The notes beneath the pieces were generated by a model. It saw only the letters and a list, made by a program, of their open reading frames with translations. It ran no database searches and was not told where the DNA came from. A DNA stretch of 57,494 nucleotides, taken from the NCBI GenBank assembly GCA_024305105.1, contig JAMWZA010000006.1, positions 17,768 to 75,261 of the forward strand. The letters are read 5' to 3'. Positions 14,871 through 32,806 of this stretch are shown one piece after another (position 1 is the first letter of the stretch; every line of letters starts with the position of its first letter). This DNA is from Marinoscillum sp. (GTDB taxonomy: Bacteria; Bacteroidota; Bacteroidia; Cytophagales; Cyclobacteriaceae). The position numbers and the translations under genes were made by a program.

Positions 14871-14878
14871 TATCTTTG
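14871..14878 (+). promoter_or_regulatory. -7 promoter element of the 7TM regulator
   Basis: TATCTTTG, a perfect TAnnTTTG. No good -33 TTTG lies 19-21 bp upstream, so activation or a weak promoter is possible. A start near 14885 leaves about 12 nt before the ATG at 14897 and excludes the in-frame TTG at 14876 as start codon. Confidence 0.5.
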
Positions 14879-14896: not shown

Positions 14897-16693
14897 ATGA
14901 TCCAACTTCTATACTTTATTCTCCTTTATTCCGCCCCGGTTCTAATTACACCTACCACAGAGGAAATCGAATTGAAGATTACTGATCTGGAGTTTGTCGA
15001 AGATTTTGACCGGATGCTGAGTATTGAAAGAGTGGTAGAGCCGTCATTTCAACCACGTTTCAATAAGGACCTGAATTTTGTACCTCAAGACTATAATACC
15101 AATTCTGCTTATTGGGTTAAACTGAAGCTTGTTGTGCAAGAGGCTAATAATGGTTACTTACTCGAGTTTTTTGATCAGACCATTGATTCACTTAATGTAT
15201 ATATCAAGCATGAGTCGGATAGCACGTTTAGCGCTTATGAAATGGGAGATATGCTCCCTTTCAAGGAAAAGCCAATGGCTCACAAGAACTTTGAAATTCA
15301 GCTGCAGCAGTCAGGTAACTACCTGGTTTACTTTCGAGTAGTCAGTCATGAGTATGCAGATATTCGGGTGGCTGTAAGAAGTTATGGCTGGTTTGTAGAG
15401 TATGCGCTGGCCGAGTATTATTTGTACGGCATCTTCTATGGAATGATCCTGATCATCTCGCTCTACAATATGCTGATTTATTCAGCCATGCGAGAGATTA
15501 AGTATTTATACTACACTTTTTATATAGTGAGTGTTGGGTTATTTGCGATTAGCATTGATGGAATAGGATATCAGTATTTATGGAGAAATAGTCCCTCATG
15601 GAACCAGATTGCTCATGGCGTGGCGCTCTTTCTGATCATTTTCTGGGCGATTCTTTTCTCTAAAAAGTTCTTGAATCTAAAAATACGATCACCTCGGATT
15701 AACCAGCTACTGAACTGGGTTTTGGGGTTTCGCGTGGCGCTTTTCCTTTATGCGTTGTTTTTTGATAACGGGCTGTTTCAGTTTCGGAATATTGAATTGA
15801 TTCCTCTGGTCACCATTTTCGTTGGGAGTATTTCTGTTTTTATGCGTGGGTATAAGCCTGCAAGATTCTTTATTGTGGCTTTTGGCTTCCTGTTTTTAGG
15901 GTTTATACTAAAAGCACTTTTGATGCTGTCAATCATACCTTTCTATATACTGAGTTACTACAGTTTGCATATCTGTTTTGTATTCGAGATGCTGTTTTTG
16001 TCCTTTGCATTGAGCGATCGTGTCCGTATTCTGAAAGCCAATAGGGATAGAGCTTTAAAGCGTATCATTTCTCAACATGAAGAGAACGCTAAACTGAAGG
16101 ATCGTATGAATGCCCGTCTGGAGTCTTTAGTAGAAATTCGTACGGTTGAACTACAAGAGAAGAATGAGCTATTATCTCAGCAGAAACAAGATATCTCTGA
16201 GATTAACTCGCTTCTTGATTTAGATAATTACCGCCTTAGGAATGATATTAAATCTATCCAAAGAGAGCGACTTCAAAACAAGGAATTATCCTATGACGAG
16301 TTCAAAGAAGTCTTTTCTGATAAAGCGGCTTGCTTGTTGGCATTGAGTAAACGCAAATGGAGTGAAAGCTTCAACTGTATCAAATGTGGTAATGATCACT
16401 ACAGTGAAGGCAATACGCTGTATAGCAGAAGGTGTAGTAAGTGTGGTTACCAGGAATCCCCAACCACGAACACTCTTTTTCATGGGATTCGCTTTCCTTT
16501 AGAGAAGGCATTCTATATTCTTTATGAAACGCTAAATCAAAATCAATATACACTCGCAGAGCTCTCGCAAATCCTTGATCTTAGGAAAAACACTATTTCA
16601 GATTTCAAAAAGCGTATCCATTCAAAAAATGATGATGAGAAAGGAGATCTTAGAGAAATTTTCAAAAATCTTGAAGATGTACCTGAGAGGTGA
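14897..16693 (+). CDS. 7TMR-DISM receptor fused to IS1595-type zinc-ribbon/HTH module
   Basis: A 598-residue predicted membrane-bound regulator. A signal peptide (about 1-18) is followed by an extracytoplasmic 7TMR-DISM sensor domain (to about 175, with AYWVKLKL and YLVYFRVVSHEYADI), seven membrane helices (about 178-375), and a coiled coil (about 380-465). The last 130 residues match the N-terminal part of IS1595-family transposases: EFKEVFSDKAACLLALSKRKW, then a zinc ribbon with CIKCG and CSKCG (near 494-515), TLFHGIRFPLEKAFYILYE, and an HTH-like LAELSQILDLRKNTISDFKK. There is no DDE/DDN catalytic domain and no kinase domain. I infer a membrane-tethered DNA-binding protein controlling the adjacent PUL. 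ATG 14897 was chosen because of the -7 element at 14871 and the signal peptide. Confidence 0.8.
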   Translation: MIQLLYFILLYSAPVLITPTTEEIELKITDLEFVEDFDRMLSIERVVEPSFQPRFNKDLNFVPQDYNTNSAYWVKLKLVVQEANNGYLLEFFDQTIDSLNVYIKHESDSTFSAYEMGDMLPFKEKPMAHKNFEIQLQQSGNYLVYFRVVSHEYADIRVAVRSYGWFVEYALAEYYLYGIFYGMILIISLYNMLIYSAMREIKYLYYTFYIVSVGLFAISIDGIGYQYLWRNSPSWNQIAHGVALFLIIFWAILFSKKFLNLKIRSPRINQLLNWVLGFRVALFLYALFFDNGLFQFRNIELIPLVTIFVGSISVFMRGYKPARFFIVAFGFLFLGFILKALLMLSIIPFYILSYYSLHICFVFEMLFLSFALSDRVRILKANRDRALKRIISQHEENAKLKDRMNARLESLVEIRTVELQEKNELLSQQKQDISEINSLLDLDNYRLRNDIKSIQRERLQNKELSYDEFKEVFSDKAACLLALSKRKWSESFNCIKCGNDHYSEGNTLYSRRCSKCGYQESPTTNTLFHGIRFPLEKAFYILYETLNQNQYTLAELSQILDLRKNTISDFKKRIHSKNDDEKGDLREIFKNLEDVPER

Positions 16694-16739: not shown

Positions 16740-16755
16740 TGCTATTCAAGCGATA
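16740..16755 (+). repeat. 16-bp direct repeat, copy 1 (candidate operator)
   Basis: TGCTATTCAAGCGATA. The same 16 bases recur at 16803-16818, 63 bp downstream, or about six helical turns. Both lie in the 233-bp gap between the 7TM regulator and the first PUL gene. Confidence 0.75.
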
Positions 16756-16776
16756 CACTAGTGTTAAAAAATATAT

Positions 16777-16827
16777 AAATGAATTTATTCAAAAATTATT
16801 ATTGCTATTCAAGCGATAAATTCATTT
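16777..16827. repeat. Inverted repeat in the PUL upstream region
   Basis: Arms AAATGAATTTAT (16777-16788) and ATAAATTCATTT (16816-16827) are perfectly complementary over 12 bp with a 27-nt loop. The right arm overlaps the end of the second direct repeat. It may be an operator or an RNA hairpin in the region before the PUL. Confidence 0.6.
16803..16818 (+). repeat. 16-bp direct repeat, copy 2 (candidate operator)
   Basis: A second exact copy of TGCTATTCAAGCGATA. It lies about 75 bp before the candidate -33 element of the PUL promoter, a position suited to an activator. Confidence 0.75.
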
Positions 16828-16926: not shown

Positions 16927-18438
16927 ATGCAATCGTTATCAAATCGTAAGGTTCAGGATTACCTAAAGGGCTTAGTTATACCATATGTGGCAATAACTTT
17001 ACTCGTTTTTGGCTGTACAGATTCGACGGATGATGCGGATATAAATCCCATCAATGAGCCTGAGGTCAATTGGCGGGAAACACATACGATATCAGAACTC
17101 AAGGATTCGTATGCAGCAGGAAACGTCATTGAGGATACCGTCATTTTTACTGGTAAGGTGAGCAGCAGTAACACAAGTGGTAATTTTAGCAAAATCGTTT
17201 ACCTCCAGAGTTCTGAAGCCATTGCGATTCCTTTAGCCGTTGAAAATTTATCTGACGATTATGAGCTTGGTAAAGAATTTTTGGTTTTGGCTAGTGGATT
17301 AAAATATGATCTGGCAACAAATACCCTCGTAACGGACGATGGGGAGTTGTTGTCTTCTGAAGAAGCTGGGGAACATTTTTATGTTATCGACAGCAATCGT
17401 ACCGTAAATTTTAAAGTCGTTACCGATTTAATGGATATTGAAGCTTCCGACGATTCCAGACTTGTTAAGATCTATGGTATACAGTTTGAGGAATCATTGA
17501 CAGACGAAAACTACAATGAAGTGGCATCCAGTGGACGGCTTAACCTGAAAGACAAAAACGGAAATGAAATCACTTTACAGATTGTTCCTGAAGCCACTTT
17601 AAGTGATCTGTCGATACCATATGAGTCGGGATCCATCGAAGGAATCGTAAAACTTGAGGGTGAAAAAAAAGTCATTATTCCCAGAACACCTGAAGATCTT
17701 GATTTTACCAGAGAACGACATTCCATGTACGCTAAGGCAGTTTTTTCTGCTAACGGAAATTCGCTTCCCTATCAGATCATGTTTCCCAGAAATTACAACG
17801 CACAAGAGGAATACCCATTGGTGATATTTCTTCATGGAGCAGGAGAGCGGGGTACCGACAATGAACGCCAGATGGCTTATGGTTCACAGACTTTTAGTAG
17901 TCAATATAGTCGTGAGAATCATCCCGCTATCGTGGTGTTTCCGCAATGTCCTAATACAGACATGTGGTCAAGAAGAACCAAGGAGACCATTGATGGGGAA
18001 TTGATTTTTGAATTTCCGGTAGAAACCTCAGCCAACACGCCAATGCAGCTAGTCATTGATTTGACTAATGAATTGGTTGCCACAGAAGCAGTTGATGAAT
18101 CAAGAATTTATGTGATGGGCTTATCCATGGGTGGAATTGGAACATTGGAATACCTGTACTACGCGTCTGATATTCCAGCAGCAGCAATTTCCATAGCTGG
18201 CGGACATGATGCTGATTTAGTACAGACATATGGTGAAAAAGTATCGATTCGCCTCTATCATGGAGGCAATGATGGTGTGGTTCCACCAAGATACAGTGAG
18301 AATTTATTTACAGCATTAGACGCTTTAAGCGGTGCTGATGTGGAGTTCTATTTAGATGAAAATAAAGGACATGAGTGGAATTACGTTCTGAATGAAGCAG
18401 AGAATCTACTGCCATGGCTTTGGAGCAAAACAAAATAA
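16927..18438 (+). CDS. Lipoprotein esterase with DUF5689-like domain
   Basis: A 503-residue lipoprotein with lipobox LVFGC (Cys30) followed by acidic TDSTDD, consistent with surface export. Residues about 50-265 resemble DUF5689, an OB-like domain of Bacteroidota surface proteins. Residues about 270-503 form an alpha/beta-hydrolase of the COG4099 predicted-peptidase/esterase type. FLHGAGERGTDNE forms the oxyanion region, GLSMGG holds nucleophile Ser400, HGGNDGVVPP the Asp and KGHEWN the His. It probably removes ester substituents from the PUL substrate. The catalytic part is closely related to the esterase at 27682. It is the first PUL gene, 32 bp before susC. The signal sequence starts with an unusually long polar stretch. 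Confidence 0.82.
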   Translation: MQSLSNRKVQDYLKGLVIPYVAITLLVFGCTDSTDDADINPINEPEVNWRETHTISELKDSYAAGNVIEDTVIFTGKVSSSNTSGNFSKIVYLQSSEAIAIPLAVENLSDDYELGKEFLVLASGLKYDLATNTLVTDDGELLSSEEAGEHFYVIDSNRTVNFKVVTDLMDIEASDDSRLVKIYGIQFEESLTDENYNEVASSGRLNLKDKNGNEITLQIVPEATLSDLSIPYESGSIEGIVKLEGEKKVIIPRTPEDLDFTRERHSMYAKAVFSANGNSLPYQIMFPRNYNAQEEYPLVIFLHGAGERGTDNERQMAYGSQTFSSQYSRENHPAIVVFPQCPNTDMWSRRTKETIDGELIFEFPVETSANTPMQLVIDLTNELVATEAVDESRIYVMGLSMGGIGTLEYLYYASDIPAAAISIAGGHDADLVQTYGEKVSIRLYHGGNDGVVPPRYSENLFTALDALSGADVEFYLDENKGHEWNYVLNEAENLLPWLWSKTK

Positions 18439-18470
18439 CAAGATACAATCAATCAACAAATGAGAGGAAA

Positions 18471-21400
18471 ATGAAGAAAGTCTACACTACGATTTTATTG
18501 ACCTTTTTGGCCTTTAACCTAATGGCTCAGGAGGTGACGATAAGTGGGACCATCAAAGATTCTGAAGATGGAGAACCACTGATCGGTGCAAATGTCATTG
18601 AGAAGGGTACAACGAATGGTACTATTACTGATTTCGACGGGAATTATAAATTGACTGTCTCTAGTAAAGATGTGACACTCATATTTTCTTATGTGGGGTA
18701 TAAGCGCAAGGAAATTGACGTCAACAATCAAACGACCATAGATGTTGACCTAACATTGGATATGTCTGAGCTTGACGAAGTGGTAGTTGTAGGGTATGGT
18801 TCCGTTCGGAAAAGTGATTTGACTGGATCTGTAGCTTCCATTAAAAGTGAAGATTTGGTTAAGGTGCCAAACGCTAATCCAGTACAGGCATTACAAGGAA
18901 AAGTATCTGGATTACAGGTGTTGAACACCAGTGGTGATCCAGGGTCTACTCCAGTAGTCCGACTAAGAGGGATTACTACTTTGAATAACAACAACCCCAT
19001 ATTCGTAGTGGACGGGGTGATTATCGAGGAAGGTAACTCTTTAGACTTCCTTAATGCCAACGATATTGAATCTGTGGAGGTACTTAAGGATGCGTCAGCT
19101 ACAGCCATTTTTGGATCTCGAGGGAGTAATGGAGTAATCATTGTCACGACCAAGCGGGGTAAAAAAGGAGATGTTCGAGTAAACGTTTCCATGGATCATA
19201 GCTGGGAAAGTGTTTCAAAGCGTATTGAAATGATGAATGGACGTGAGTTCGCACAATACGTCAATGACATAGAACCTGGAACCTATAATAATCTGGATGT
19301 TTTGGATGATACTGATTGGCAAGACCTCATTTATGAGGACATGCGGCCAATTCGGAATGTTTCTGCCTCAATTAGCAGCGCCACTGATAAGATTGATTAT
19401 TATTTCGGATTGGGATATTTCTATCAGGAAGGACTTCTCGGTGTAGGTGAAGGATCTAACTTTGATCCACAATCTGAATTCGAACGAGTCACTGCAAAGA
19501 TCAATACCACCTATAAGGTGACCGAAGCTTTTGATATTGGTTTAAACCTATCATTGGCACTCAGAGATAAACAAAACGCACCAGGGGTTATTAATACAGC
19601 GCTTAGGGCATGGCCTATAAGTGTTCCTTTCAATGATGACGGCACGTTTGCTGAGGTAAGAGGTAGTGCGAATGCACTGGCGGCTATGGAATATTCCAAT
19701 AGCTATCGCAAGTCATTTGAGAGTGTAGGAAATTTTTACCTGGAGTATGACTTCCTTGATGGGTTTACAGCTAAGTCTAGTTTTCAGTTTACTGCTGGGG
19801 CAGGTCGAAGCAAGAGTTTCACACCAGCATTTTATGTAGCGCCGTTGCAGCAAAATGAAACAAGTGACATCAGTGTCAACTACAGCGATAATTCGTTTGT
19901 ACTATGGGAAAACACCATTTCTTACCAAAAGGAATTTGGCATCCACAGAGTGAATTCAGTGGCTGGATATACGATACAGCGGGAAAGCAGTGAGTTTCTA
20001 AGTGGTAGTGGCCAAAACCTGCTTCGTGAAAATGAAAATTACTGGTACATCAATGCGAGCGATGGGGATCCACTGTTACAAAATGTATCGAATAATGGCG
20101 GCTATGGATCCATGGTTTCGTTCCTCTTCAGAGCCAACTATACCTTGCTTGATCGCTACTTGTTCACAGCAACATTTAGAAGAGATGGTTCTTCCAATTT
20201 TGGTTCTAGAAACCGATACGGAAATTTTCCATCATTCGCACTAGGTTGGAATGTGAGCGAAGAGTCATTTTTCCCAACGACACGATTCATCGATAACCTG
20301 AAAGTGAGAGCCAGTTGGGGAATTGTAGGTAATGAAAAAATTGGCGGGGGAGCACAGTTTTCCACTATTGGAACTGGCTTTGGAGCAGTTTTTGGAGTCA
20401 ATGAAACCCTTAATTCTGGAGCTACTTTAGCTAGCGCGGGTAACCCGGATCTCAGATGGGAAGAAACCGAACAGTTTGATGTTGGAATTAACATGGACTT
20501 GCTTCAGGGAAGACTGATCGCGGAGTTTGATTACTATGTTAAAACGACTAATGATATTTTGGTTCGATTGGAACCAGCAGGATATCTGGGTGTGGGAGCC
20601 TTCCAAAGCATCACCTATAATGTGGCCAATGTTCAGAATAAAGGGTTTGAGTTTAATCTGACTTGGAGAGACAAAATTGGCGACTTCAACTATCAGGTTG
20701 GCGGGCTTGGATCATTCGTAGAAAACGAAGTGCTTAACCTTGGAGCAAATATCGGAGCTGACTCAGTGATCACAGGAGGAGATTTGGGTAATGGCCAGCG
20801 GGTCGCACAAACTGTTGTTGGGTATCCTATTGGGTTCTTCTATGGATACAAAGTTGCCGGAGTTTTCCAAAACGAAGCCCAACTGGAAGAATTTCCAAGC
20901 TTGTCAGCTCAAAGGGCAGGTGACTTCATTTATGAAGATACTAATGAGGATGGCATCTTGAATGCTGAGGACCGAACAGTCATTGGAAATTCAATTCCTG
21001 ATTTCATTTATGGATTCAATGCTTCAGTTGGTTACAAAAACATCAATCTAAGCTGTGATTTTCAGGGACAGACAGGAGTGGATATCTACAATGGCAAACA
21101 GGCAATCACATCTTCTCTATACAATAGAGAGGCAAAGTTCAACAATCGATGGACAGGAGAAGGGTCCACCAATGAACATCCTCGAGCTACTCAAGGTGGT
21201 GTGAACTATTCTCCGAGTGACTATTTCGTTGAAGATGGTTCCTTTTTACGACTGAGGACATTGACACTGAGCTATGACATTCCATCTGGTTTGCTTGAAT
21301 CTGTTAAAGCTCAGTCTCTGAGGTTTTATGTGAGAGGGACGAACCTTGTCACCTTCACGAAATACTCTGGTTATTCACCGGATTTGGGAGCTGGCAGTCC

Positions 21401-21476
21401 TCTGGATGGTGTGATCGATCGAGGAGTTTACCCAATCTCAAAAGTTTATAGTGCTGGTTTGAATTTAACATTTTGA
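18471..21476 (+). CDS. SusC/RagA-family TonB-linked outer membrane transporter
   Basis: A 1001-residue TonB-dependent transporter. The signal peptide ends LMAQ (about residue 20). A CarboxypepD_reg-like domain follows (VTISGTIKDSEDGEPLIGANV), then the SusC signature DEVVVVGYG, a plug domain with VDGVIIEEGNS and ATAIFGSRGSNGVIIVTTKRG, and a 22-strand barrel to the terminal Phe of SAGLNLTF. It imports oligosaccharides through the outer membrane with the SusD lipoprotein as lid. No STN signalling domain precedes the plug, so it is not an anti-sigma-coupled receptor. The ATG at 18471 gives a clean signal peptide; an earlier in-frame ATG at 18414 lies in the previous gene. The susD ATG begins two bases after the stop. 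Confidence 0.95.
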   Translation: MKKVYTTILLTFLAFNLMAQEVTISGTIKDSEDGEPLIGANVIEKGTTNGTITDFDGNYKLTVSSKDVTLIFSYVGYKRKEIDVNNQTTIDVDLTLDMSELDEVVVVGYGSVRKSDLTGSVASIKSEDLVKVPNANPVQALQGKVSGLQVLNTSGDPGSTPVVRLRGITTLNNNNPIFVVDGVIIEEGNSLDFLNANDIESVEVLKDASATAIFGSRGSNGVIIVTTKRGKKGDVRVNVSMDHSWESVSKRIEMMNGREFAQYVNDIEPGTYNNLDVLDDTDWQDLIYEDMRPIRNVSASISSATDKIDYYFGLGYFYQEGLLGVGEGSNFDPQSEFERVTAKINTTYKVTEAFDIGLNLSLALRDKQNAPGVINTALRAWPISVPFNDDGTFAEVRGSANALAAMEYSNSYRKSFESVGNFYLEYDFLDGFTAKSSFQFTAGAGRSKSFTPAFYVAPLQQNETSDISVNYSDNSFVLWENTISYQKEFGIHRVNSVAGYTIQRESSEFLSGSGQNLLRENENYWYINASDGDPLLQNVSNNGGYGSMVSFLFRANYTLLDRYLFTATFRRDGSSNFGSRNRYGNFPSFALGWNVSEESFFPTTRFIDNLKVRASWGIVGNEKIGGGAQFSTIGTGFGAVFGVNETLNSGATLASAGNPDLRWEETEQFDVGINMDLLQGRLIAEFDYYVKTTNDILVRLEPAGYLGVGAFQSITYNVANVQNKGFEFNLTWRDKIGDFNYQVGGLGSFVENEVLNLGANIGADSVITGGDLGNGQRVAQTVVGYPIGFFYGYKVAGVFQNEAQLEEFPSLSAQRAGDFIYEDTNEDGILNAEDRTVIGNSIPDFIYGFNASVGYKNINLSCDFQGQTGVDIYNGKQAITSSLYNREAKFNNRWTGEGSTNEHPRATQGGVNYSPSDYFVEDGSFLRLRTLTLSYDIPSGLLESVKAQSLRFYVRGTNLVTFTKYSGYSPDLGAGSPLDGVIDRGVYPISKVYSAGLNLTF

Positions 21477-21478
21477 TC

Positions 21479-22960
21479 ATGAAGATTTTAAAACATTTAA
21501 GCGTCGCAATCATCGCAATAATTGCTTTTTCCTGTGATGAAGATTTTCTAGACAGACCGCCTCAGTCGGAATTAACTGTTGGGACTTTTCCTGAAACTCC
21601 AGAAGATGCCCGATTAGCGATAAATGGAGCGTATAATTCGTTAAGGCAATGGAATTTAGCAGCTGGAGGGTTTCCAATTTTTGACATCATGTCTGATGAG
21701 TGTACTAAAGGTACAAACCCAGGTGACGGTGCTTCTACAGCAGTATTCGAAGACTTTTCTTTTGATTCTTTTGATGGAGCCTTTGAGCGGTACTACAAGA
21801 CTCTTTATCAGGCAGTTCGTCGTGCAAACCTGGTCATTCAGGAAACCCCAAAAATTCAAATGGATGAAAGTTTGAAATCACGTTACATCGCAGAAGCACG
21901 TTTCTTAAGAGCTTATTACTACTCAGTATTGGTAAGGTCTTTTGGTGGTGTACCAATGGTGACTACTATTAATCCGCCTGTAGATTTAGCTAGAGAAGAT
22001 GCACAGGTGATTTGGGATGAAATTGTCTTTCCTGATTTGGAGTATGCAAGTGAAAACCTGCCTGAAAAGTCGGAATATGCTGCTGCTGATCTTGGCAGAG
22101 TTACCCGCGGTGGAGCTAAGGCATTAGCCGCCAGACTTCACTTGTATTTGGGAAATTTTTCGGAGGCTGAAAGTTTGGCTATGGAGGTGATTAATTCTGG
22201 TCAATACGATCTGGAAGCAAATTTTGGTGATGCATTTAGTTCAGAGAATGAAGGAGGAATAGAATCCGTTTGGGAAGTACCAGCACTGCCGTTAGCTTTT
22301 GGTAATGGTGGTAACCAGTATGCCAATACCTGGGGAATTCGAGGAACACCAAACCGCGGTTGGGGATTTGGACGACCGGCGTACCCTTGGATCGAAAAAA
22401 TGCAGGCTAATGACGACCCACGCCTTGATGCAAGCGTCATATTCTTAAACGAAGAGCTTGGTGGTGTAATTACCGAAGGAGAAGCTGATACACCTGATAC
22501 CACGTACAACGATAGCAACGAAATTATTGAAATTGAGTGTTACAACCAGAAAGTATGGCACCCAGGTACAAATTCTCAGGAATCTTTTGGTCATAACAGA
22601 AGACTGATTCGTTTTGCTGATGTATTGCTGATGGCAGCCGAAGCTTTAAATGAAAACAACAAACCTGCTCAAGCGCTGACAGAACTTAACAAAGTGCGAG
22701 CAAGAGCTCGGAGAGGTGCAGCAATATTGCCTGATATCACTACTACAGATAAAGCTGAATTGCGCCAGGCAATTGCGAACGAAAGAAACTACGAACTCGC
22801 TTTTGAAGGTCTCAGGTACTGGGATTTGGTACGAACCGGACGCGCCGCAGAAGTAATGGGCCCACTCGGTTATGTCGAGGGCAAGCATGAGCTGATGCCC
22901 ATCCCTCAATCTGAGGTAGATATTTCAGAAGGAAGAATCAAACAAAATCCCGAATACTAA
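21479..22960 (+). CDS. RagB/SusD-family glycan-binding lipoprotein
   Basis: A 493-residue surface lipoprotein. The lipobox is IAFSC (Cys19), followed by DEDFLDRPPQSE, typical of SusD N-termini. TPR-like segments include RLAINGAYNSLRQW, RFLRAYYYSVLVRSFGGVPMVT and RLHLYLGNFSEAESLAMEVI; the C-terminus has LAFEGLRYWDLVRTG and HELMPIPQSEVDISEGRIKQNP. With SusC it forms the pedal-bin import complex that captures oligosaccharides. The ATG at 21479 is used; a TTG two codons upstream overlaps the susC stop. Substrate specificity cannot be deduced from SusD. Confidence 0.95.
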   Translation: MKILKHLSVAIIAIIAFSCDEDFLDRPPQSELTVGTFPETPEDARLAINGAYNSLRQWNLAAGGFPIFDIMSDECTKGTNPGDGASTAVFEDFSFDSFDGAFERYYKTLYQAVRRANLVIQETPKIQMDESLKSRYIAEARFLRAYYYSVLVRSFGGVPMVTTINPPVDLAREDAQVIWDEIVFPDLEYASENLPEKSEYAAADLGRVTRGGAKALAARLHLYLGNFSEAESLAMEVINSGQYDLEANFGDAFSSENEGGIESVWEVPALPLAFGNGGNQYANTWGIRGTPNRGWGFGRPAYPWIEKMQANDDPRLDASVIFLNEELGGVITEGEADTPDTTYNDSNEIIEIECYNQKVWHPGTNSQESFGHNRRLIRFADVLLMAAEALNENNKPAQALTELNKVRARARRGAAILPDITTTDKAELRQAIANERNYELAFEGLRYWDLVRTGRAAEVMGPLGYVEGKHELMPIPQSEVDISEGRIKQNPEY

Positions 22961-22995: not shown

Positions 22996-24300
22996 ATGAA
23001 AACAATCAAGTATTTATTTGGCCTAGTGCTGATGGCAGCTATTGTAACATTTACAAGCTGTAATAAAGATGATGAACCAGACGATTTGACCATCCTAAGT
23101 ATAACTGCTTCTGGTGATGATGTATTATCTGGCGACGCAACGGAAGTTGATTTGAATGGTGCTACCTCTGCAGAAGGTGTGCCTGTTGAGCCTGTCATTG
23201 TAGTTACTTTCAGCACAGAAGTGGATGAAACGTCTGTTACCACCTCTACTATTTCTTTAGAAGGAGTGGAGTCTACTGTAAGTGTAACTGGAGCAGCTGT
23301 TACCATTACTCCAAGTGCAGAATTACAAAGAGGAACGGTTTATAACCTGGTAATTGGTGCTGTGTCTGGAGCTAATGGTGGTGGATTCACTGCATCATCA
23401 AGATCATTCAAAACAGGTGGTCGTGCACCGGTGGTTGCTCCTCAGGAAGCAGCTCAGATTGCGTTTTGGAAGTTTGATGGTGATGCTACAGACGAAACAG
23501 GTGTTTACAATCCTGATTACGAGCACATGATCGAGTATGTAGAGGATCGTCATGGACAAGCTATGAGTACGGCACTTTTTGACGGAGATGCAAGTATCAT
23601 CGAAGTAAACGATGCTGGTGATTTAATGGTGGAAAGAAGCGGATGGACCATCAGTTTCTGGATGAAACCTGATACGACTGACAACCTTAATGCTAGTGGA
23701 ACAGGACCTGCAGGTCAGTTTCCATTCGGTTTAGGTGCCTTCTATGGTTTCAGAATGGAAGCTAATGGCGTCTATGGAGATTTTAGTCTGTCGACAAGAT
23801 GGGAAATCGACCCTGAAGGTGAAGATGCTTACACACGTGGAGAGGGATTTAGTTTCAATGGTGATGGTAATTACAACGCTACGGGCGGTTGGAGAGGCCA
23901 TACATTCGAAGCAGACCTGGAGTCTCAAGGTGGCTTGAGTGCACTTTTAGTTGACAAGTGGTCACATGTGATTTTCACTTATGATGCTTCTACATTGACC
24001 GCATCCATTTTTATCAATGGAGAGTTGATGAAAGAGCAGCAATACCTTGAGTACGATCCGCATCCGCAAACAGATTGTGTAGGATGGAAGTATTCTGGTG
24101 AAGAGCCAACGGTATACCCTGACTTGGCATTTGGTTTTGTGCAGTCTAGACGTGGTACATTATGGGATACAGAGTCTTATGGTAACTATGATTCTCCTAC
24201 ATCAAACCACTTCAAAGGTATGTTGGATGACTTTAGAATCTTCAGCGCAGCTTATACTGCTGAAGACGCTTCAGATCTTTATGATGCTGAAAAACCTTGA
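22996..24300 (+). CDS. Surface lipoprotein with Ig-like and LamG domains (putative SGBP)
   Basis: A 434-residue lipoprotein in the slot after SusD usually held by a surface glycan-binding protein. The lipobox is FTSC (Cys22), with acidic NKDDEPDD following. Residues about 35-140 look like a bacterial Ig-like (Big_5) domain, with VVTFSTEVDETSVTTSTISL. Residues about 150-430 form a LamG/concanavalin A-like jelly roll: AFWKFDGDATDETG, ATALFDGD-type STALFDGDASIIEV, WTISFWMKPD and a closing MLDDFRIFSAAYTAEDASDLYD. No glycosidase residues are evident. The role in binding the PUL substrate at the cell surface is inferred from position and fold. Confidence 0.82.
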   Translation: MKTIKYLFGLVLMAAIVTFTSCNKDDEPDDLTILSITASGDDVLSGDATEVDLNGATSAEGVPVEPVIVVTFSTEVDETSVTTSTISLEGVESTVSVTGAAVTITPSAELQRGTVYNLVIGAVSGANGGGFTASSRSFKTGGRAPVVAPQEAAQIAFWKFDGDATDETGVYNPDYEHMIEYVEDRHGQAMSTALFDGDASIIEVNDAGDLMVERSGWTISFWMKPDTTDNLNASGTGPAGQFPFGLGAFYGFRMEANGVYGDFSLSTRWEIDPEGEDAYTRGEGFSFNGDGNYNATGGWRGHTFEADLESQGGLSALLVDKWSHVIFTYDASTLTASIFINGELMKEQQYLEYDPHPQTDCVGWKYSGEEPTVYPDLAFGFVQSRRGTLWDTESYGNYDSPTSNHFKGMLDDFRIFSAAYTAEDASDLYDAEKP

Positions 24301-24370: not shown

Positions 24371-26347
24371 ATGAATATCAAACTCGTTATACTACTCACT
24401 TCTCTACTTACTTTTTGTGCTTGTGGACAAGAAGAGCCAGAGGAAACACCCGTATCAATGCAGCTCACTGCGCTGAGAGTGGGCACAGTGAGTATTTTAT
24501 CCCAATCAGAAACAACTCCCAATAACCAACCAATCATTATATCATTCAACGTACCTCTTAATAGTAGTACTGTTGAACAAGCTATCACCTTAATAAACGA
24601 AGAGGCGGCACCAATTCCGCTGACTTTTTCTTATTTAGACAATGACAAAACAATTTCAGCCAGCCCGGGGGCAAACCTCGATATTGATAAGAGCTATACC
24701 ATCACTATCTCTGATGCCATTCGAGGAGTTTCTGGAGAAGTTTTTCCAGGTGTGGCAATCACTTTTACCACATCCAACCCTCCAATAGTGATTACAGGAA
24801 CTAAAATCAATGACAAACTCATAGATAAGAATACTCGCATTCAAAACATTGATTTGAGACCAACCATTGATATTGCCTTTTCTGAGGCAGTAACTGTTAG
24901 CGAGGTTACTGATTTTATGAGTTTAAACCTTGGCGGAGCTAAGGTGTCGACTACCAATTCTCAATTGATGGACTCGATCATTCGACTTCAACCGGATAAT
25001 GACCTACAGGGATGGAGGAGGTACAACTTTTTGATTGGATCAGGTTTTGGATCAGCGAAAGAAAGACCTTTTGATGGCTATCAATTACCCTTCTACACCA
25101 AATTAGATTCCACATTGAAGTTTCCAGAGATCTCTGACGAAGAATTGCTGACCAAGGTGCAGGAGCAGACATTTAAATATTTTTGGGACTTTGGTCATCC
25201 GGTCAGCGGATTGGCGAGGGAAAGAAATACGAGTCAGGAAACTGTCACAATTGGTGGTTCAGGTTTTGGAATAATGGCCATTCTTGTAGGAATAGAAAGA
25301 GGATTTGTGACTCATCAGGAAGGAATAGACCGACTGGATAAAATCATCACTTTTTTAGGGGATGATGCTGACCGTTTTCATGGCGTATGGTCTCATTGGC
25401 TAAATGGAACCTCAGGACAGGTTGTACCCTTTAGTGCGAACGATGACGGAGGCGATTTAGTGGAGACAGCTTTCATGATACAGGGATTAATCACAGTTAG
25501 GCAGTATCTGGATACATCCGATCCACAGGAAGCAGAAATAATTGATAAGATCAATGATCTGGTCGATGAGGTGGAGTGGGATTGGTACACTCAAAATGAT
25601 CAGAATGTACTTTATTGGCATTGGTCACCTAATTTTGGATGGGAAAAATATCATAGGATAACTGGGTGGAATGAAGCCATGATCGTCTATGTAATGGCCG
25701 CAGCATCTACTACTCACAGCATTGAAAAAGAAGTGTATCAGAGCGGATGGTCTAGAGACGGAGATATGGTGAATAGTGGTAATACGTCACATTATGGATA
25801 TACCTTGCCTTTACGAACAGATAGAGGCGGACCCTTGTTTTTTGCCCATTATTCGTTTCTTGGGCTTGATCCACGAAACTTGTCAGACCAGTTTGCTAAT
25901 TACTGGACACAGAATGTGACGCATAGCCAGATCAATCAGGCTTATTGCATCGCCAACCCACAAAGGTATGTTGGATACACTGACTATTCGTGGGGGCTAA
26001 CTGCCAGCGATGGAGATTCTGGATACTCTGCCCATTCACCTAATAATGATCGTGGAGTGATCACGCCTACAGCGGCCCTTTCATCCATCCCATATACCCC
26101 TGAAGAATCAATAAAAGCGATGCGTCATTTCTATTTTATCCTTGGAGATAGACTGTGGGGTGAATACGGGTTTTACGATTCATTTAATCCGACAGAAAAC
26201 TGGTATGCATCATCTTACCTTGCAATAGATCAGGGACCAATTATTTTAATGATAGAAAATTACAGAACTGGTTTGCTTTGGGACTTATTTATGTCAGCAC
26301 CTGAGGTACAAAGTGGACTAGAAAAGCTTGAAATAACCTATGAATAA
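24371..26347 (+). CDS. GH144-type (PF10091) glucanase with N-terminal Ig-like domains
   Basis: A 658-residue lipoprotein, lipidated at Cys16 or Cys18; the following GQEEPEE is acidic, as in exported surface lipoproteins. Residues about 30-135 form a Big_5 Ig-like domain and about 138-250 a second beta-rich module. The catalytic PF10091 domain starts near residue 255 (LLTKVQEQTFKYFWDFGHPVSGLARER) and includes the conserved GGSGFGIMAILVGIERGF and acidic NDDGGDLVETAFMIQG. Characterised family members (GH144, Chitinophaga and Bacteroides) are endo-beta-1,2-glucanases releasing sophorooligosaccharides. I infer this is the cell-surface endo-enzyme of the PUL. Its stop overlaps the start of its paralogue by eight bases (ATGAATAA). 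Confidence 0.85.
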   Translation: MNIKLVILLTSLLTFCACGQEEPEETPVSMQLTALRVGTVSILSQSETTPNNQPIIISFNVPLNSSTVEQAITLINEEAAPIPLTFSYLDNDKTISASPGANLDIDKSYTITISDAIRGVSGEVFPGVAITFTTSNPPIVITGTKINDKLIDKNTRIQNIDLRPTIDIAFSEAVTVSEVTDFMSLNLGGAKVSTTNSQLMDSIIRLQPDNDLQGWRRYNFLIGSGFGSAKERPFDGYQLPFYTKLDSTLKFPEISDEELLTKVQEQTFKYFWDFGHPVSGLARERNTSQETVTIGGSGFGIMAILVGIERGFVTHQEGIDRLDKIITFLGDDADRFHGVWSHWLNGTSGQVVPFSANDDGGDLVETAFMIQGLITVRQYLDTSDPQEAEIIDKINDLVDEVEWDWYTQNDQNVLYWHWSPNFGWEKYHRITGWNEAMIVYVMAAASTTHSIEKEVYQSGWSRDGDMVNSGNTSHYGYTLPLRTDRGGPLFFAHYSFLGLDPRNLSDQFANYWTQNVTHSQINQAYCIANPQRYVGYTDYSWGLTASDGDSGYSAHSPNNDRGVITPTAALSSIPYTPEESIKAMRHFYFILGDRLWGEYGFYDSFNPTENWYASSYLAIDQGPIILMIENYRTGLLWDLFMSAPEVQSGLEKLEITYE

Positions 26348-27689
26348 GTACCACCAATTAATCTGTGCATTGGTTTTGACCATGGTAGTCAGTAGTTGTG
26401 CATCTACACAAAAGCCTGAGGCAGAAACCGAAGTGTCTAAGGTGACTGAAGATTCCTTACTGGATAAAGTCCAATACCAGACCTTTCAGTATTTCTGGGA
26501 AGGAGCAGAGCCCACTTCTGGTCTCGCAAGAGAGCGAATCCATATGGATAATATTTATCCGAGCAATGACCGCAATGTTGTTACTTCAGGTGGATCGGGC
26601 TTTGGGGTAATGGCCATTCTGGTTGGAATAGAGCGTGGCTTTGTGTCAAGACAAGAAGCGGTTAGTCGGTATGAAAAGATCCTGAATTTTCTAGAAACAG
26701 CAGACCGTTTTCATGGTGTATATCCTCACTGGTGGTATGGAGATACCGGAAAAGTAAAGCCGTTCAGTAAAAAGGATGATGGCGGTGACCTGGTAGAAAC
26801 TGCCTTTCTTATGCAAGGTTTACTTGCCGTAAGAGAATATTTTAAAGACGGCAATGAAGGTGAAAAGGAGATAGCTCGACGGATTGATACCATCTGGAAG
26901 GAAGTAGAATGGGATTGGCATACCAAAGGAGGCGAAAATGTCCTCTATTGGCACTGGTCACCAAATGTTGGTTGGGAGATGAATTTTCCTGTCGGCGGAT
27001 ACAACGAATGTTTGATCATGTACGTCCTGGCTGCTTCATCGCCTACGCATGGCGTGAAACCTGAGGTATATCATCAGGGATGGGCTAAGAATGGTAAAAT
27101 TGAATCCAATCAGGTTTATTATGGACAAGATTTGGTTTTAAATCATTACGAGCACGACGAAGCGAAAGTAGGTCCACTTTTTTGGGCGCATTATTCGTAT
27201 TTGGGTTTGAACCCTAAAGGCCTGAAGGATCAATATGGTGAGTTTTGGAAACTGAATCAAAGTCATGCCAAAGTACATTATGAGTACAGCCTGGAAAACC
27301 CAGAAGGATATGAAGGTTATGGAAAGGAGAACTGGGGTCTCACGTCGAGTTACAGTTTGCGGGGTTATGCAGGTCATCGTCCTGGTCGGGACCTGGGTGT
27401 AATTTCTCCAACTGCAGCTCTATCGTCATTTCCTTACACACCTACTGAAAGCATGCAAATGCTTAGCTGGTTGTATGCCCCAGAGAGAGATTCTTTGGTA
27501 GGAAAGTATGGTCCGTATGATGCGTTTAGTCGAAGCAGCAATTGGTATTTACCCAGATACCTGGCTATTGATCAGGGACCAATTCCGGTTATGATCGAGA
27601 ACTATCGAAGTGGGTTACTATGGGACCTGTTTATGTCAGCACCAGAAGTGCAGGCTGGTCTAAAGAAATTAGGTTTTAGTTATGAATAG
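26340..27689 (+). CDS. GH144-type (PF10091) glucanase, short form
   Basis: A 449-residue lipoprotein (lipobox VSSC, Cys20) with the same catalytic domain as the preceding gene but no Ig-like modules; the domain starts about residue 40 with LLDKVQYQTFQYFWEGAEPTSGLARER. GGSGFGVMAILVGIERGFV, KDDGGDLVETAFLMQG and the C-terminal LAIDQGPIPVMIENYRSGLLWDLFMSAPEVQ are conserved between the two. The Cys is followed by ASTQKPE, without a dense acidic export signal, so a periplasmic location is more likely. It could shorten imported oligosaccharides before the GH3 enzyme. It overlaps both neighbours by eight bases (ATGAATAA and ATGAATAG). Confidence 0.85.
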   Translation: MNKYHQLICALVLTMVVSSCASTQKPEAETEVSKVTEDSLLDKVQYQTFQYFWEGAEPTSGLARERIHMDNIYPSNDRNVVTSGGSGFGVMAILVGIERGFVSRQEAVSRYEKILNFLETADRFHGVYPHWWYGDTGKVKPFSKKDDGGDLVETAFLMQGLLAVREYFKDGNEGEKEIARRIDTIWKEVEWDWHTKGGENVLYWHWSPNVGWEMNFPVGGYNECLIMYVLAASSPTHGVKPEVYHQGWAKNGKIESNQVYYGQDLVLNHYEHDEAKVGPLFWAHYSYLGLNPKGLKDQYGEFWKLNQSHAKVHYEYSLENPEGYEGYGKENWGLTSSYSLRGYAGHRPGRDLGVISPTAALSSFPYTPTESMQMLSWLYAPERDSLVGKYGPYDAFSRSSNWYLPRYLAIDQGPIPVMIENYRSGLLWDLFMSAPEVQAGLKKLGFSYE

Positions 27690-28470
27690 ATTGTTTTCAT
27701 CATTTTTAGTTTTAGGTTTCACTTTGGTTGGCTGGTCTCAGCCAACCAAGGATTCTTTCAAAGAAGCCAGCTATTCTCAAGATGGAAAGTCATTAAATTA
27801 TAGAATTCTCTACCCTGAGAATTTCAATAAAAATAAACAGTATCCCGTCGTTCTATTTTTACATGGTGCAGGTGAGCGTGGCAGCGATAATAAGAAGCAA
27901 CTAGCTCATGGAAGCTCGCTTTTTCTAAGTGACAGTTTTAGAGAAACGTATCCGGCAGTGGTGATTTTTCCACAGTGTCCCAAAGAAAGCTATTGGGCCA
28001 ATGTGGATGTAGATCGAAGTAGCTTTCCTCTGACATTTAATTTCAAAAACGGAGGAGAGCCGACTTATGCCATGAAGTTGGTGATGGGGTTAATGGATTC
28101 CGTCAAATCATTGAGCTATAGTCAGGATGATCGACTCTATCTTGGAGGCTTGTCGATGGGTGGTTTTGGGACTTATGAACTGCTATCTCGAAAGCCGAAC
28201 ATGTTTGCAGCTGCTTTTGCGATATGTGGTGGTGCTCATCCGGCTACCGCTTCGAACTATGCTTCTTTTGTGCCAATGTGGGTATTTCATGGAGGAAAAG
28301 ACAATGTAGTCTTACCGTCTTACTCAACCGAAATGGTGATTGCATTGCGGAAGGCAGGAGGGTCTGTTAAATACACGCTGTATAAAGATGCCAATCATAA
28401 TAGCTGGGATTCAGCATTTGCTGAACCAGGACTTATGGACTGGTTATTTTCTCACAAGAATTCCAATTAA
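27682..28470 (+). CDS. Secreted alpha/beta-hydrolase (esterase)
   Basis: A 262-residue protein with a signal peptide (about 1-19, cleavage near WSQ) and a single alpha/beta-hydrolase domain. FLHGAGERGSDNKKQLAHGSS, FPQCPKESYW, GLSMGGFG with nucleophile Ser158, HGGKDNVVLP and DANHNSWD complete the triad. It is closely related to the esterase domain of the first PUL gene (16927) but lacks lipidation and DUF5689, so it is probably periplasmic. A matched surface/periplasm pair implies that the glycan carries ester groups. The family is sometimes annotated as predicted peptidase; the esterase role is inferred from context. Confidence 0.82.
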   Translation: MNRLFSSFLVLGFTLVGWSQPTKDSFKEASYSQDGKSLNYRILYPENFNKNKQYPVVLFLHGAGERGSDNKKQLAHGSSLFLSDSFRETYPAVVIFPQCPKESYWANVDVDRSSFPLTFNFKNGGEPTYAMKLVMGLMDSVKSLSYSQDDRLYLGGLSMGGFGTYELLSRKPNMFAAAFAICGGAHPATASNYASFVPMWVFHGGKDNVVLPSYSTEMVIALRKAGGSVKYTLYKDANHNSWDSAFAEPGLMDWLFSHKNSN

Positions 28471-28473
28471 AAA

Positions 28474-30255
28474 ATGCGCACAATATTTTTAGTTATAAGC
28501 TCACTTTTGGTTCTTGGAGTTGATGCCCAATCGGTCAAGACTTATTGTAATCCGATTGACATTGATTATACCTATATGTCGCATTATCGAGCGCGAAATG
28601 ACGTTTCTTACCGATCTGGAGCAGATCCTGCAGTGGTCAATTTCAAAGGAAAATACTATTTATTTGTCACCAGATCTCACGGCTATTGGGTATCCGATGA
28701 TATGAGTAATTGGAAATTCATCAAACCTCAATCCTGGTATTTCAATGGATGCAATGCTCCAGCGGCTGTCGTAAAGGATGGTAAAATCCTTGTTTTGGGT
28801 GATCCATCGGGAAGAGGAGCCGTTATTGAGACAGACAATCCTGAACTCGGGGATTGGAAAACGAATTATGCAGTAATTAACGTGCCACGTGGTGTACAAG
28901 ATCCCGCCTTGTTTGTAGATGATGATAGCAAGGTATACCTCTATGAAGAGTCTTCTAATAAATGGCCGATACATGGTATTGAGCTTGATGCAGAGAATTT
29001 CTATATACCAGTGGGCGAGCAGTCAGATCTTTTTAATCTGGATCCGGAAAATCACGGATGGGAGCGATTTGGTCAAAATCACAAGTCCGATATTAAGCCC
29101 TTTATTGAGGGGCCATGGATGAGCAAACATGGTAATACCTACTACCTGGAGTATAGCGCACCTGGTACTCAGTGGAACGTATACGCAGATGGCGTTTATA
29201 CATCGAAAGATCCATTAGGTCCATTTGAGTATGCTCCATACAATCCCGTGTCTTATAAACCAGGAGGTTTTCTAACCGGAGCAGGTCATGGGAGTACTGT
29301 AAGGGATATTCATGGTAATTACTGGCACTATGCCAGCATGACCATTTCCGTTAATTTCAAATTTGAGCGAAGAATCGGAATGTTCCCAACAGGATTTGAA
29401 GAGGGGCAGATGTATGTAAATACGGCTTATGGAGATTATCCACATTATTTACCAGATGTTAAGGTAGAAAACCATAAAAACAGATTCACTGGATGGATGC
29501 TGCTATCGAAAGATAAGCCTGTTAAAACAAATGCAGTAATCAGCGGAGTAGACCGGAATGTGGTTGATGAAAACGATTCAGGAAATATGCTGGAGCAGGA
29601 AAAGCCAGATTACAGTGCGAATAAAATCAACGATGAGAACCTGAGAACTCAATGGGTGGCACCAAACAACAGTGACTCACTTTATGTGGAATTGGACCTT
29701 CAACGAAAAATGACCATCCATGCGGTTCAGGTCAATTTTCAAGACTTCAATGCGAACATATTCGGCAAGCCAGATTCCCTGAGACAACAATTCGTCATTC
29801 TCACTTCTGTTGATGGGGAAACCTGGCAAAAGACTGTGGACTACTCGGAGAATACGAATGACCAACCTCATGCATACATCGAGCTATCCAGGCCTGTGGA
29901 TGCCAGGTATGTAAAGTACCAAAACGTTTATTATCCCAATCAGTACCTGGCTATTGGTGAGTTTCGTGTTTTCGGTAAGGGAAATGGCCTACAGCCGAAA
30001 ACTCCTAAGGACTTTTCATCCATACGTCAGCGTGATGAACGAAATGCGTCAATCGAATGGAAATCTGTCAAGGACGCTCAGGGATATGTGTTGTACTGGG
30101 GGATTGCACCAAATAGGCTCAATAACTCTGTGATGATCTACGAGGAGAATGAATATGAACTACGTGCCCTCAATGTAGGGCAGACGTACTACTATCAGGT
30201 AGAATCGTTTAATGAAAATGGAATTTCAGAGAAATCGAAAATTGTAAAGAACTAA
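28474..30255 (+). CDS. GH43-like beta-propeller enzyme with F5/8C and FN3 domains
   Basis: A 593-residue secreted protein with signal peptide ending VDA (about residue 18). Residues about 25-350 form a five-bladed propeller as in GH43/GH117-type hydrolases: SGADPAVVNFKGKYYLF, VQDPALFVDDDSKVYLYEE and PFIEGPWM are candidate sites for the Asp base, the Asp modulator and the Glu acid. Residues about 375-505 look like an F5/8 type C (discoidin) domain with YVELDLQ and DARYVKYQNVYYP. Residues about 510-593 form a fibronectin type III domain. GH43 enzymes act mostly on arabinose, xylose or galactose linkages, so this gene points to a substrate more complex than a plain glucan. The subfamily is not clear to me. 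Confidence 0.75.
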   Translation: MRTIFLVISSLLVLGVDAQSVKTYCNPIDIDYTYMSHYRARNDVSYRSGADPAVVNFKGKYYLFVTRSHGYWVSDDMSNWKFIKPQSWYFNGCNAPAAVVKDGKILVLGDPSGRGAVIETDNPELGDWKTNYAVINVPRGVQDPALFVDDDSKVYLYEESSNKWPIHGIELDAENFYIPVGEQSDLFNLDPENHGWERFGQNHKSDIKPFIEGPWMSKHGNTYYLEYSAPGTQWNVYADGVYTSKDPLGPFEYAPYNPVSYKPGGFLTGAGHGSTVRDIHGNYWHYASMTISVNFKFERRIGMFPTGFEEGQMYVNTAYGDYPHYLPDVKVENHKNRFTGWMLLSKDKPVKTNAVISGVDRNVVDENDSGNMLEQEKPDYSANKINDENLRTQWVAPNNSDSLYVELDLQRKMTIHAVQVNFQDFNANIFGKPDSLRQQFVILTSVDGETWQKTVDYSENTNDQPHAYIELSRPVDARYVKYQNVYYPNQYLAIGEFRVFGKGNGLQPKTPKDFSSIRQRDERNASIEWKSVKDAQGYVLYWGIAPNRLNNSVMIYEENEYELRALNVGQTYYYQVESFNENGISEKSKIVKN

Positions 30256-30262
30256 GGCGAAC

Positions 30263-32575: not shown

Positions 32576-32806
32576 CCCCCGAATAGTCAATAAAGAAACA
32601 AAGCCTACTTTGATTTATTTTACTTCTTCATACGAATATCTCGGTAGGGCACCATCGAAGGACTGTCAGCATGAATCATGGGGACGTAACAAGAATGCTG
32701 ATCAGACTGAAGTCCAATCAAAATTCCCCCAATATGGAATGCGGCAGATCTTTTGATGATGAAATCAATTTCTGAACAGAATTAATCGAATAAAAGCCAA
32801 CTGAAA

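Follow-up and report, generated by a model that had tools for sequence, protein, structure and literature searches.

Known types of PUL regulator in Bacteroidota include SusR/HTCS, AraC and ECF-sigma. In the window analysed here (the whole stretch of 57,494 nucleotides from Marinoscillum sp., contig JAMWZA010000006.1, positions 17,768 to 75,261), the gene directly before a PUL encodes a 7TMR-DISM receptor whose C-terminal part resembles the beginning of an IS1595 transposase. The question raised by this locus is what such a protein does in front of a PUL, and which DNA, if any, it would read. The features discussed are collected in Table 1.

Table 1. Features of the fusion gene, the candidate operator and the adjacent PUL, in window coordinates.
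Feature	Position	Strand	Basis
Fusion gene: 7TMR-DISM receptor with IS1595-derived zinc-ribbon/HTH output	14897..16693	+	ORF calls, Pfam
Periplasmic 7TMR-DISMED2 sensor, RetS-like fold	14984..15373	+	Pfam, E 4.3e-22; Foldseek, RetS 3jyb, E 2.4e-5
Seven-helix 7TMR-DISM_7TM domain	15413..16021	+	Pfam, E 8.4e-43; AlphaFold2 helices
Signalling coiled coil, TM7 continued as one helix	16031..16261	+	AlphaFold2 helix 363-462
C4 zinc ribbon (C501, C504, C520, C523), PF12760	16325..16453	+	Pfam, alignment
Transposase N-terminus helix-turn-helix (HTH), last helix basic	16496..16621	+	Alignment, AlphaFold2 module model
Predicted operator repeat 1 (TGCTATTCAAGCGATACA)	16740..16757	+	Repeat scan, pair model
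Predicted operator repeat 2 (TGCTATTCAAGCGATAAA), 63 bp downstream of repeat 1	16803..16820	+	Repeat scan, pair model
First PUL gene, DUF5689-esterase; 3' end overlaps susC ORF	16927..18438	+	Pfam
SusC-like TonB-dependent transporter	18414..21476	+	TIGR04056, 881.7 bits; Plug domain
SusD-like protein	21473..22960	+	PF07980, 8e-34
LamG/Big_5 protein, probably surface glycan-binding	22996..24300	+	Domain search
Two Glycoamylase-family (PF10091) enzymes	24371..27689	+	Domain search
Remaining run: esterase, GH43, GH3, sulfatase	27682..34315	+	Domain search
Second 7TMR-DISM protein, hybrid histidine kinase (HisKA-HATPase-REC)	34387..36714	+	Domain search

The receptor and its C-terminal module

The reading frame is open on the forward strand from a TTG at 14876 or an ATG at 14897 through to 16693, the longest ORF being the one that starts at the TTG. 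In three other loci (L032, L034 and L037) the ORF starts where the window has its ATG, and the protein is therefore likely to be 598 amino acids long. Residue numbers given here count from the TTG; for the ATG start, 7 has to be subtracted.

The 7TMR-DISM receptors (PF07695/PF07696; RetS-type) were reportedly defined as a class in a 2003 paper, and their usual outputs are kinases, cyclases or phosphatases. The fusion shares with them the sensor, the seven helices and a coil after the last helix, whereas its output is a zinc-ribbon/HTH module of transposase origin. Pfam places 7TMR-DISMED2 (PF07696) at residues 37-166 and 7TMR-DISM_7TM (PF07695) at residues 180-382, and the two domains are also present in 20 and 21, respectively, of the 21 family members. 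Neither Pfam nor NCBIfam finds a kinase, a receiver, a DDE domain or an AraC-type HTH in the protein, and the same is true of cyclase, GGDEF and PP2C output domains. The initial annotation had described a sensor, seven helices and a coiled coil in one polypeptide that has no DDE nuclease and no kinase, and both parts of that description agree with the domain searches and with the long helix of the model.

The AlphaFold modelling proposed at that stage was carried out on 21 fusions (mean pLDDT 83.4), and the prediction contains a β-rich sensor, seven helices, a long coil, a zinc ribbon and an HTH. The seventh helix and the coil form a single helix (residues 363-462), and the joint between coil and module (residues 454-469) is modelled with low confidence. 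Modelled by itself, on 51 sequences, the C-terminal module has a pLDDT of 90.8 and a pTM of 0.82. In Foldseek, the sensor part of the model resembles the RetS periplasmic domain, the top match of the whole model is human WLS (E 1.2e-5, TM-score 0.2), and the module has nothing at E ≤ 0.001, its best weak matches being TrpR and other HTH proteins. A sequence search of the PDB with the full protein gave no match at E ≤ 1, and a profile of the module gave weak matches alone (best E 0.042).

Zn_ribbon_IS1595 (PF12760) matches the fusion at residues 484-526 with an E-value of 7.6e-4 and a score of 19.8 bits, which is lower than the curated cut-off (25.4); the last 142 residues searched separately give 8.6e-5 and 22.9 bits, still under that value. 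The profile check suggested in the initial annotation thus produces a match by E-value that falls short of the curated threshold. The zinc-ribbon homology is nevertheless real, because 19 of the 21 aligned family members match PF12760 at E ≤ 0.01 (best 1.2e-10), and because the C-terminus is 42% identical over 114 residues to a 315-residue transposase frame that carries both PF12760 (27.1 bits) and PF12762 (73 bits). Among relatives, three intact transposases (L058, L059 and L060) carry both domains and are 42, 36 and 30% identical to the last ~115 residues of the fusion; in L058, the homology stops at residue 140 and the DDE match starts at 150. The alignment with IS1595 transposases, at no more than 42% identity in intact frames, takes in the lead-in, the C4 zinc ribbon, the FHG...KAFY stretch and the HTH. 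Judged from these comparisons, the C-terminus of the fusion is the N-terminus of an IS1595 transposase (C4 zinc ribbon and HTH) without its DDE nuclease, much as had been proposed. It differs from the transposases also in that the module is C-terminal, behind a receptor, and is conserved beside PULs. The four cysteines are invariant in the 21 full-length fusion proteins, and both CxxC pairs are kept in 95 of 95 fusion modules and in 22 of 24 transposases.

In a tree of 127 modules (95 fusions and 32 transposase or other rows; 120 columns), all of the fusions lie on one side of one branch, beside the IS1595 transposases. The branch has a support of 96/74 and is present in 94% of bootstrap trees. 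This is consistent with one domestication, and it fits the earlier suggestion that a DNA-binding-type module was recruited from an insertion sequence. The clear transposase homology and the missing DDE part could also be taken as signs that an IS1595 element inserted recently into a 7TMR-DISM gene and that the C-terminus is its decaying remnant. We rule this out, and give it practically no chance of being correct: the same architecture is found in 95 distinct sequences on that single branch, no CxxC pair has been lost among them, and non-synonymous change is low, with pN of 0.13-0.23 against pS of 0.75-0.95 for the zinc-ribbon/HTH part among congeners (dS is saturated). Nor does PF12762 have a match at E ≤ 0.001 in the six genomes of the genus, which are the source genome and five congeners. 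The fusion gene is the sole PF12760 match of the source genome, and PF12762 matches occur in 15 of 59 genomes searched.

Distribution and gene neighbourhood

Full-length copies of the fusion are present in all five same-genus genomes searched, at 69-83% identity, and in a sample of the family 117 of 245 genomes match it at E ≤ 1e-60 with alignments that reach the module, so that the fusion is no chance event. Among the family matches listed, alignments extend to query residue 579 at least, and the open frames are 599-715 residues long. When the phylum was sampled evenly, the module had a match at E ≤ 1e-8 in 18 of 296 genomes. In nine of these the frames are as long as a fusion (607-718 residues); the remaining nine have only frames of 339 residues or fewer, which are transposases, fragments and short stand-alone forms. 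The genome sets of this survey overlap, some records being the same genomes. Named carriers include Marinoscillum, Marivirga, Fulvivirga, Roseivirga, Algoriphagus, Cyclobacterium, Echinicola and Pedobacter. One record, PBTY01000035.1 (L068), holds a fusion at 83% identity together with a PUL. In the four annotated public records that were opened, the gene is named only as a 7TM diverse intracellular signaling domain protein, and its DNA-binding half has thus gone unnoticed there.

The gene had been placed directly before a PUL, and the next genes in the run on the same strand are indeed those for the DUF5689-esterase, SusC and SusD. For a wider view, 81 loci were surveyed: that of the window and those of the 80 best among 558 confirmed relatives. 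The set therefore leans to close relatives, and the loci, being related by descent, are not independent of one another. In 71 of the 80 loci that have a downstream gene, the first co-directional gene after the fusion is SusC, and in 75 SusC lies somewhere in the co-directional run formed by the next six genes, which bears out for other genomes the association with PULs; the same run has SusD in 67 and PF10091-like genes in 54 (contig ends cut some of the runs). SusC is missing from the run in L076, L079, L084, L100 and L120, among which only L120 has a SusC, divergently oriented, in the available DNA. When families were counted over all 81 loci (ORFs of at least 100 amino acids, flanks up to 10 kb), those found in more than 14 loci were the fusion (81, by construction of the set), SusC (75), SusD (68), PF10091-like (58), GH3 (26) and LamG-like (26). 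There is no other regulator among these families, and the fusion is therefore the only candidate regulator common to most loci.

The initial annotation had described the PUL as lacking a recognised SARP, ECF sigma or AraC-hybrid regulator. This picture is incomplete, as a second 7TMR-DISM signalling protein, the hybrid histidine kinase, is encoded in the gene run. Being of the same receptor class and in the same run, this kinase might itself control the PUL and leave the fusion an accessory role. We consider that very improbable: a search for a DNA-binding domain in the kinase found none, and genes matching its kinase-receiver profile are present in 18 of the 81 loci (window included), against a fusion in every locus of the set. 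In ten Pedobacter loci and in L084 these matches come as a pair near the fusion, of about 420-440 codons and 226 codons; the shorter gene, tested in L134, encodes an OmpR-type response regulator (REC and Trans_reg_C). The response regulator (7816-8493 in L134) and a kinase-like gene lie directly before the fusion in L134 and nine other Pedobacter loci. Pedobacter loci also have a GH30 gene instead of PF10091 (one of 11 related proteins tested).

We take PF10091 to be the family of the GH144 enzymes, which are endo-β-1,2-glucanases. Because genes for this family and for GH3 occur together in the run, the locus suggests β-1,2-glucan or a related glucan as the substrate. Further upstream in the window (7692-10343) there is a protein of 883 amino acids with the D-Ala-D-Ala ligase domains twice in tandem, seen as two N-terminal and four C-terminal Pfam stretches.

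More distant paralogues also adjoin genes for sugar use. In a group at 37-43% identity (L268-L277), SusC follows the fusion in nine of ten loci; L270 has as neighbours a protein without a Pfam match and a GH30 enzyme. A group at ~30% identity adjoins carbohydrate genes, which in the one locus tested (L281) are GH10, GH67, GH43 and GH97. There are also four plasmid copies, all with both CxxC pairs. Those on two Persicobacter plasmids adjoin SusCD, GH3 and GH16 genes, and that of Aureibacter adjoins GH43, GH97, GH3 and sulfatase genes. On plasmid p1 of Flammeovirga kamogawensis (L243, 9016-15017), the fusion paralogue is followed by an operon-like run of ribokinase, sugar-transporter and ADP-ribosylglycohydrolase genes, which suggests that the class extends beyond polysaccharides.

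Paired repeats ahead of the PUL

The candidate operator consists of two direct repeats (approximately TGTTNTTNAAGCGNNA) ahead of the PUL. The gap that separates the fusion from the PUL contains the sequence TGCTATTCAAGCGATA twice, 63 bp apart, and this sequence has no further exact copy in the source genome. Both repeats fall within the region (16740-16827) that had been put forward as a target, and 106 nt separate the end of the second from the start codon that follows it in the window.

The pairing can be seen without a motif model. In a self-similarity analysis of 75 regions there is an excess at spacings of 64, 65, 66 and 92, in 6, 7, 6 and 10 regions respectively, where five shuffles lead one to expect 0.0-0.2 regions per spacing. 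The short motif TTNAAGCG is present on the coding strand of 35 of the 75 target regions and on the opposite strand of two; the same count over 247 other intergenic regions from these loci gives four and two.

A free-running EM motif search drifted to poly-T, and a seeded two-site model was used for this reason, with spacings of 20-150 allowed and none preferred. The seed was picked after the repeats had been seen, and the controls and shuffles were run with the same seed. Of 77 regions, 55 have their pair placed by the model at a spacing of 63-66 and a further 12, 11 of them from Pedobacter, at 90-92. Control regions have a pair at 63-67 in 1-5 of 77 (five draws), and shuffles in 1-8 of 77 (ten). 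The minus-strand run gives 29 of 77 at 63-67, which is no independent control, because a direct repeat stays direct on both strands.

A pair score of at least 20 is reached in 53 of 75 target regions, an in-sample figure, and in one of the 247 other intergenic regions (21.4, the next being 11.6). No pair scores as high in the 81 regions upstream of the fusion itself, and autoregulation by the fusion was rejected on that ground. Upstream of 28 other susC genes of the source genome the best pair scores 10.0, against 32.1 here; 30 of the 56 TIGR04056 matches of that genome were retrieved for this control, in which L188, L196 and L208 have short upstream DNA at contig ends and L212 is unscored. 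A search of the source genome with the pair pattern gave five matches, one of them at the fusion locus, and two for the reversed control.

Fourteen loci outside the training set were searched at spacings limited to 60-70. Six score at least 12, all at spacings of 64-65, and eight score below; the six include close relatives of loci used in training. L120, likewise outside training, has its best pair (16.6) in the gap between the fusion and its divergent susC, and the pair points at susC. The four loci with no SusC in the available DNA (L076, L079, L084 and L100) have no pair above 12.1.

Among the distant paralogues, a good pair is found in four of the ten loci of the 37-43% group, at a spacing of 65 (L268), 78 (L274, L277) or 79 (L275); of the rest, L272 scores 14.2 at 65, L276 16.0 at 100, and the others 8.1 or less. 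The ten loci of the ~30% group have no convincing pair (L283 scores 15.5 at a spacing of 84, and the others 1.5 or less or have too short a gap), and the four plasmid copies have none. Spacing thus follows clade, at ~65, 78-79 (L274, L275, L277) and 92 (Pedobacter, L128-L146), and these steps are of ~13 bp rather than of whole helical turns. By eye, the operator has no clear likeness to the ends of the nearest IS1595 elements, for which candidate inverted repeats were listed.

The two copies within a locus resemble each other more than chance pairing allows, with 12.9 of 18 positions identical against 10.95 (sd 0.24) for shuffled partners; none of 5000 shuffles reached as high a value. In a genus-level set of seven loci, in which the pair of L034 was set by hand, 0.3% of permutations reach the observed within-locus likeness. 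Such co-variation is the trace that would be expected if one protein with drifting specificity reads both copies. In partial Mantel tests, operator distance follows HTH distance with a partial r of 0.19 and 7TM distance with the same value, so that co-evolution of HTH and operator is inseparable from shared descent.

This equality would also fit a receptor that has some other cytoplasmic role, the repeats being read by a different regulator, either unlinked or, in Pedobacter, the neighbouring OmpR-type protein. The paralogues that have no detectable pair, namely the plasmid copies and most of the ~30% group, point the same way, as does the OmpR-type gene of the ten Pedobacter loci and L084; since that gene lies near the fusion, the 92-bp Pedobacter pair could belong to it. 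We nevertheless consider a different reader unlikely. Most loci have no second candidate regulator family in common, and the pair is absent from the 28 other susC upstream regions of the source genome. L143 has neither the response regulator nor the kinase-like gene, yet keeps a 91-bp pair. Finally, the N-terminal part of DDE transposases, to which the module corresponds, binds DNA ends.

Proposed mechanism and relation to known systems

On the basis of the domain order, the transposase-derived module, the place before SusC/SusD and the recurrent paired repeat, we hypothesise that the fusion is a membrane-tethered one-component transcription regulator of the adjacent PUL, most likely an activator, and we hold this to be quite probable. 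A glycan fragment would bind to the periplasmic DISMED2 domain, and the signal would travel through the seven helices to a dimeric coiled coil. Two zinc-ribbon/HTH modules would thereby be oriented so that they bind the two direct repeats, which at 63-66 bp are about six helical turns apart, and the bound modules would switch on the PUL operon.

A variant of this mechanism is that the protein is a repressor released by its ligand, or that the module is freed by proteolysis, instead of acting as a tethered activator. The low-confidence joint at residues 454-469 could be a cleavage site, and sequence cannot tell activation from repression; set against this, the distance between the second repeat and the start codon is probably more usual for activators. 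We regard the variant as rather unlikely, and prefer the tethered activator.

Compared with known systems, the proposed regulator shares with the HTCS and SusR proteins of Bacteroides PULs a membrane-spanning glycan sensor and a DNA-binding output in one PUL-adjacent polypeptide; SusC lies in the co-directional run downstream of it in 75 of 80 loci, a placing that agrees with SusR-type and other PUL regulators. It has no kinase, receiver or AraC-type HTH, and differs from them in its receptor and DNA-binding modules and in having its own candidate operator. With the exapted TnpB factors of the TldR type it has in common the reuse of a nuclease-inactive mobile-element protein as a regulator; TldR is RNA-guided, whereas the zinc-ribbon/HTH would read DNA directly. 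Regulators of the ToxR/CadC type, and reportedly ChiS (PMC8092284), similarly hold a DNA-binding domain at the membrane by means of a receptor, and the fusion differs from these in its seven helices, its DISMED2 sensor and the transposase origin of its C-terminal module.

The fusion family is therefore best read, from its sequence features, as belonging with the PUL-linked, membrane-spanning, one-component regulators. In the searchable part of the open-access literature, we found no description of a 7TMR-DISM receptor fused to an IS1595 module, nor of a transposase origin for the DNA-binding module of any regulator of that kind. We lean, with some reserve, towards seeing these proteins as a further class of Bacteroidota PUL regulator, in which a 7TM receptor with a transposase zinc-ribbon/HTH would act at the membrane on spaced repeats. 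The class would have arisen by one domestication and then diversified with the glycan (PF10091/GH144-like, GH30, GH10/GH67 xylan-type, GH16/GH3 and ribose-type loci), with the spacing shifting by clade between about 65, 78 and 92 bp. If this is true, it is a clear bacterial case of the DNA-binding part of a transposase being captured as the output of a membrane receptor, and it supplies the glycan loci of environmental Bacteroidota, for example Cytophagales and Pedobacter, with a regulator and a likely operator.

Two other relatives of the module were seen in the survey. A distant Bacteroidota genome encodes a stand-alone zinc-ribbon/HTH protein of 137 amino acids (L222, 1194-1607, reverse strand), which branches beside the fusions and may represent a domesticated version that exists on its own. 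Another genome (G218; loci L218, L231, L234 and L236-L242) has thirteen matches of transposase size that are among the closest relatives of the fusion module, and these perhaps belong to a relative of the donor element that was active recently.
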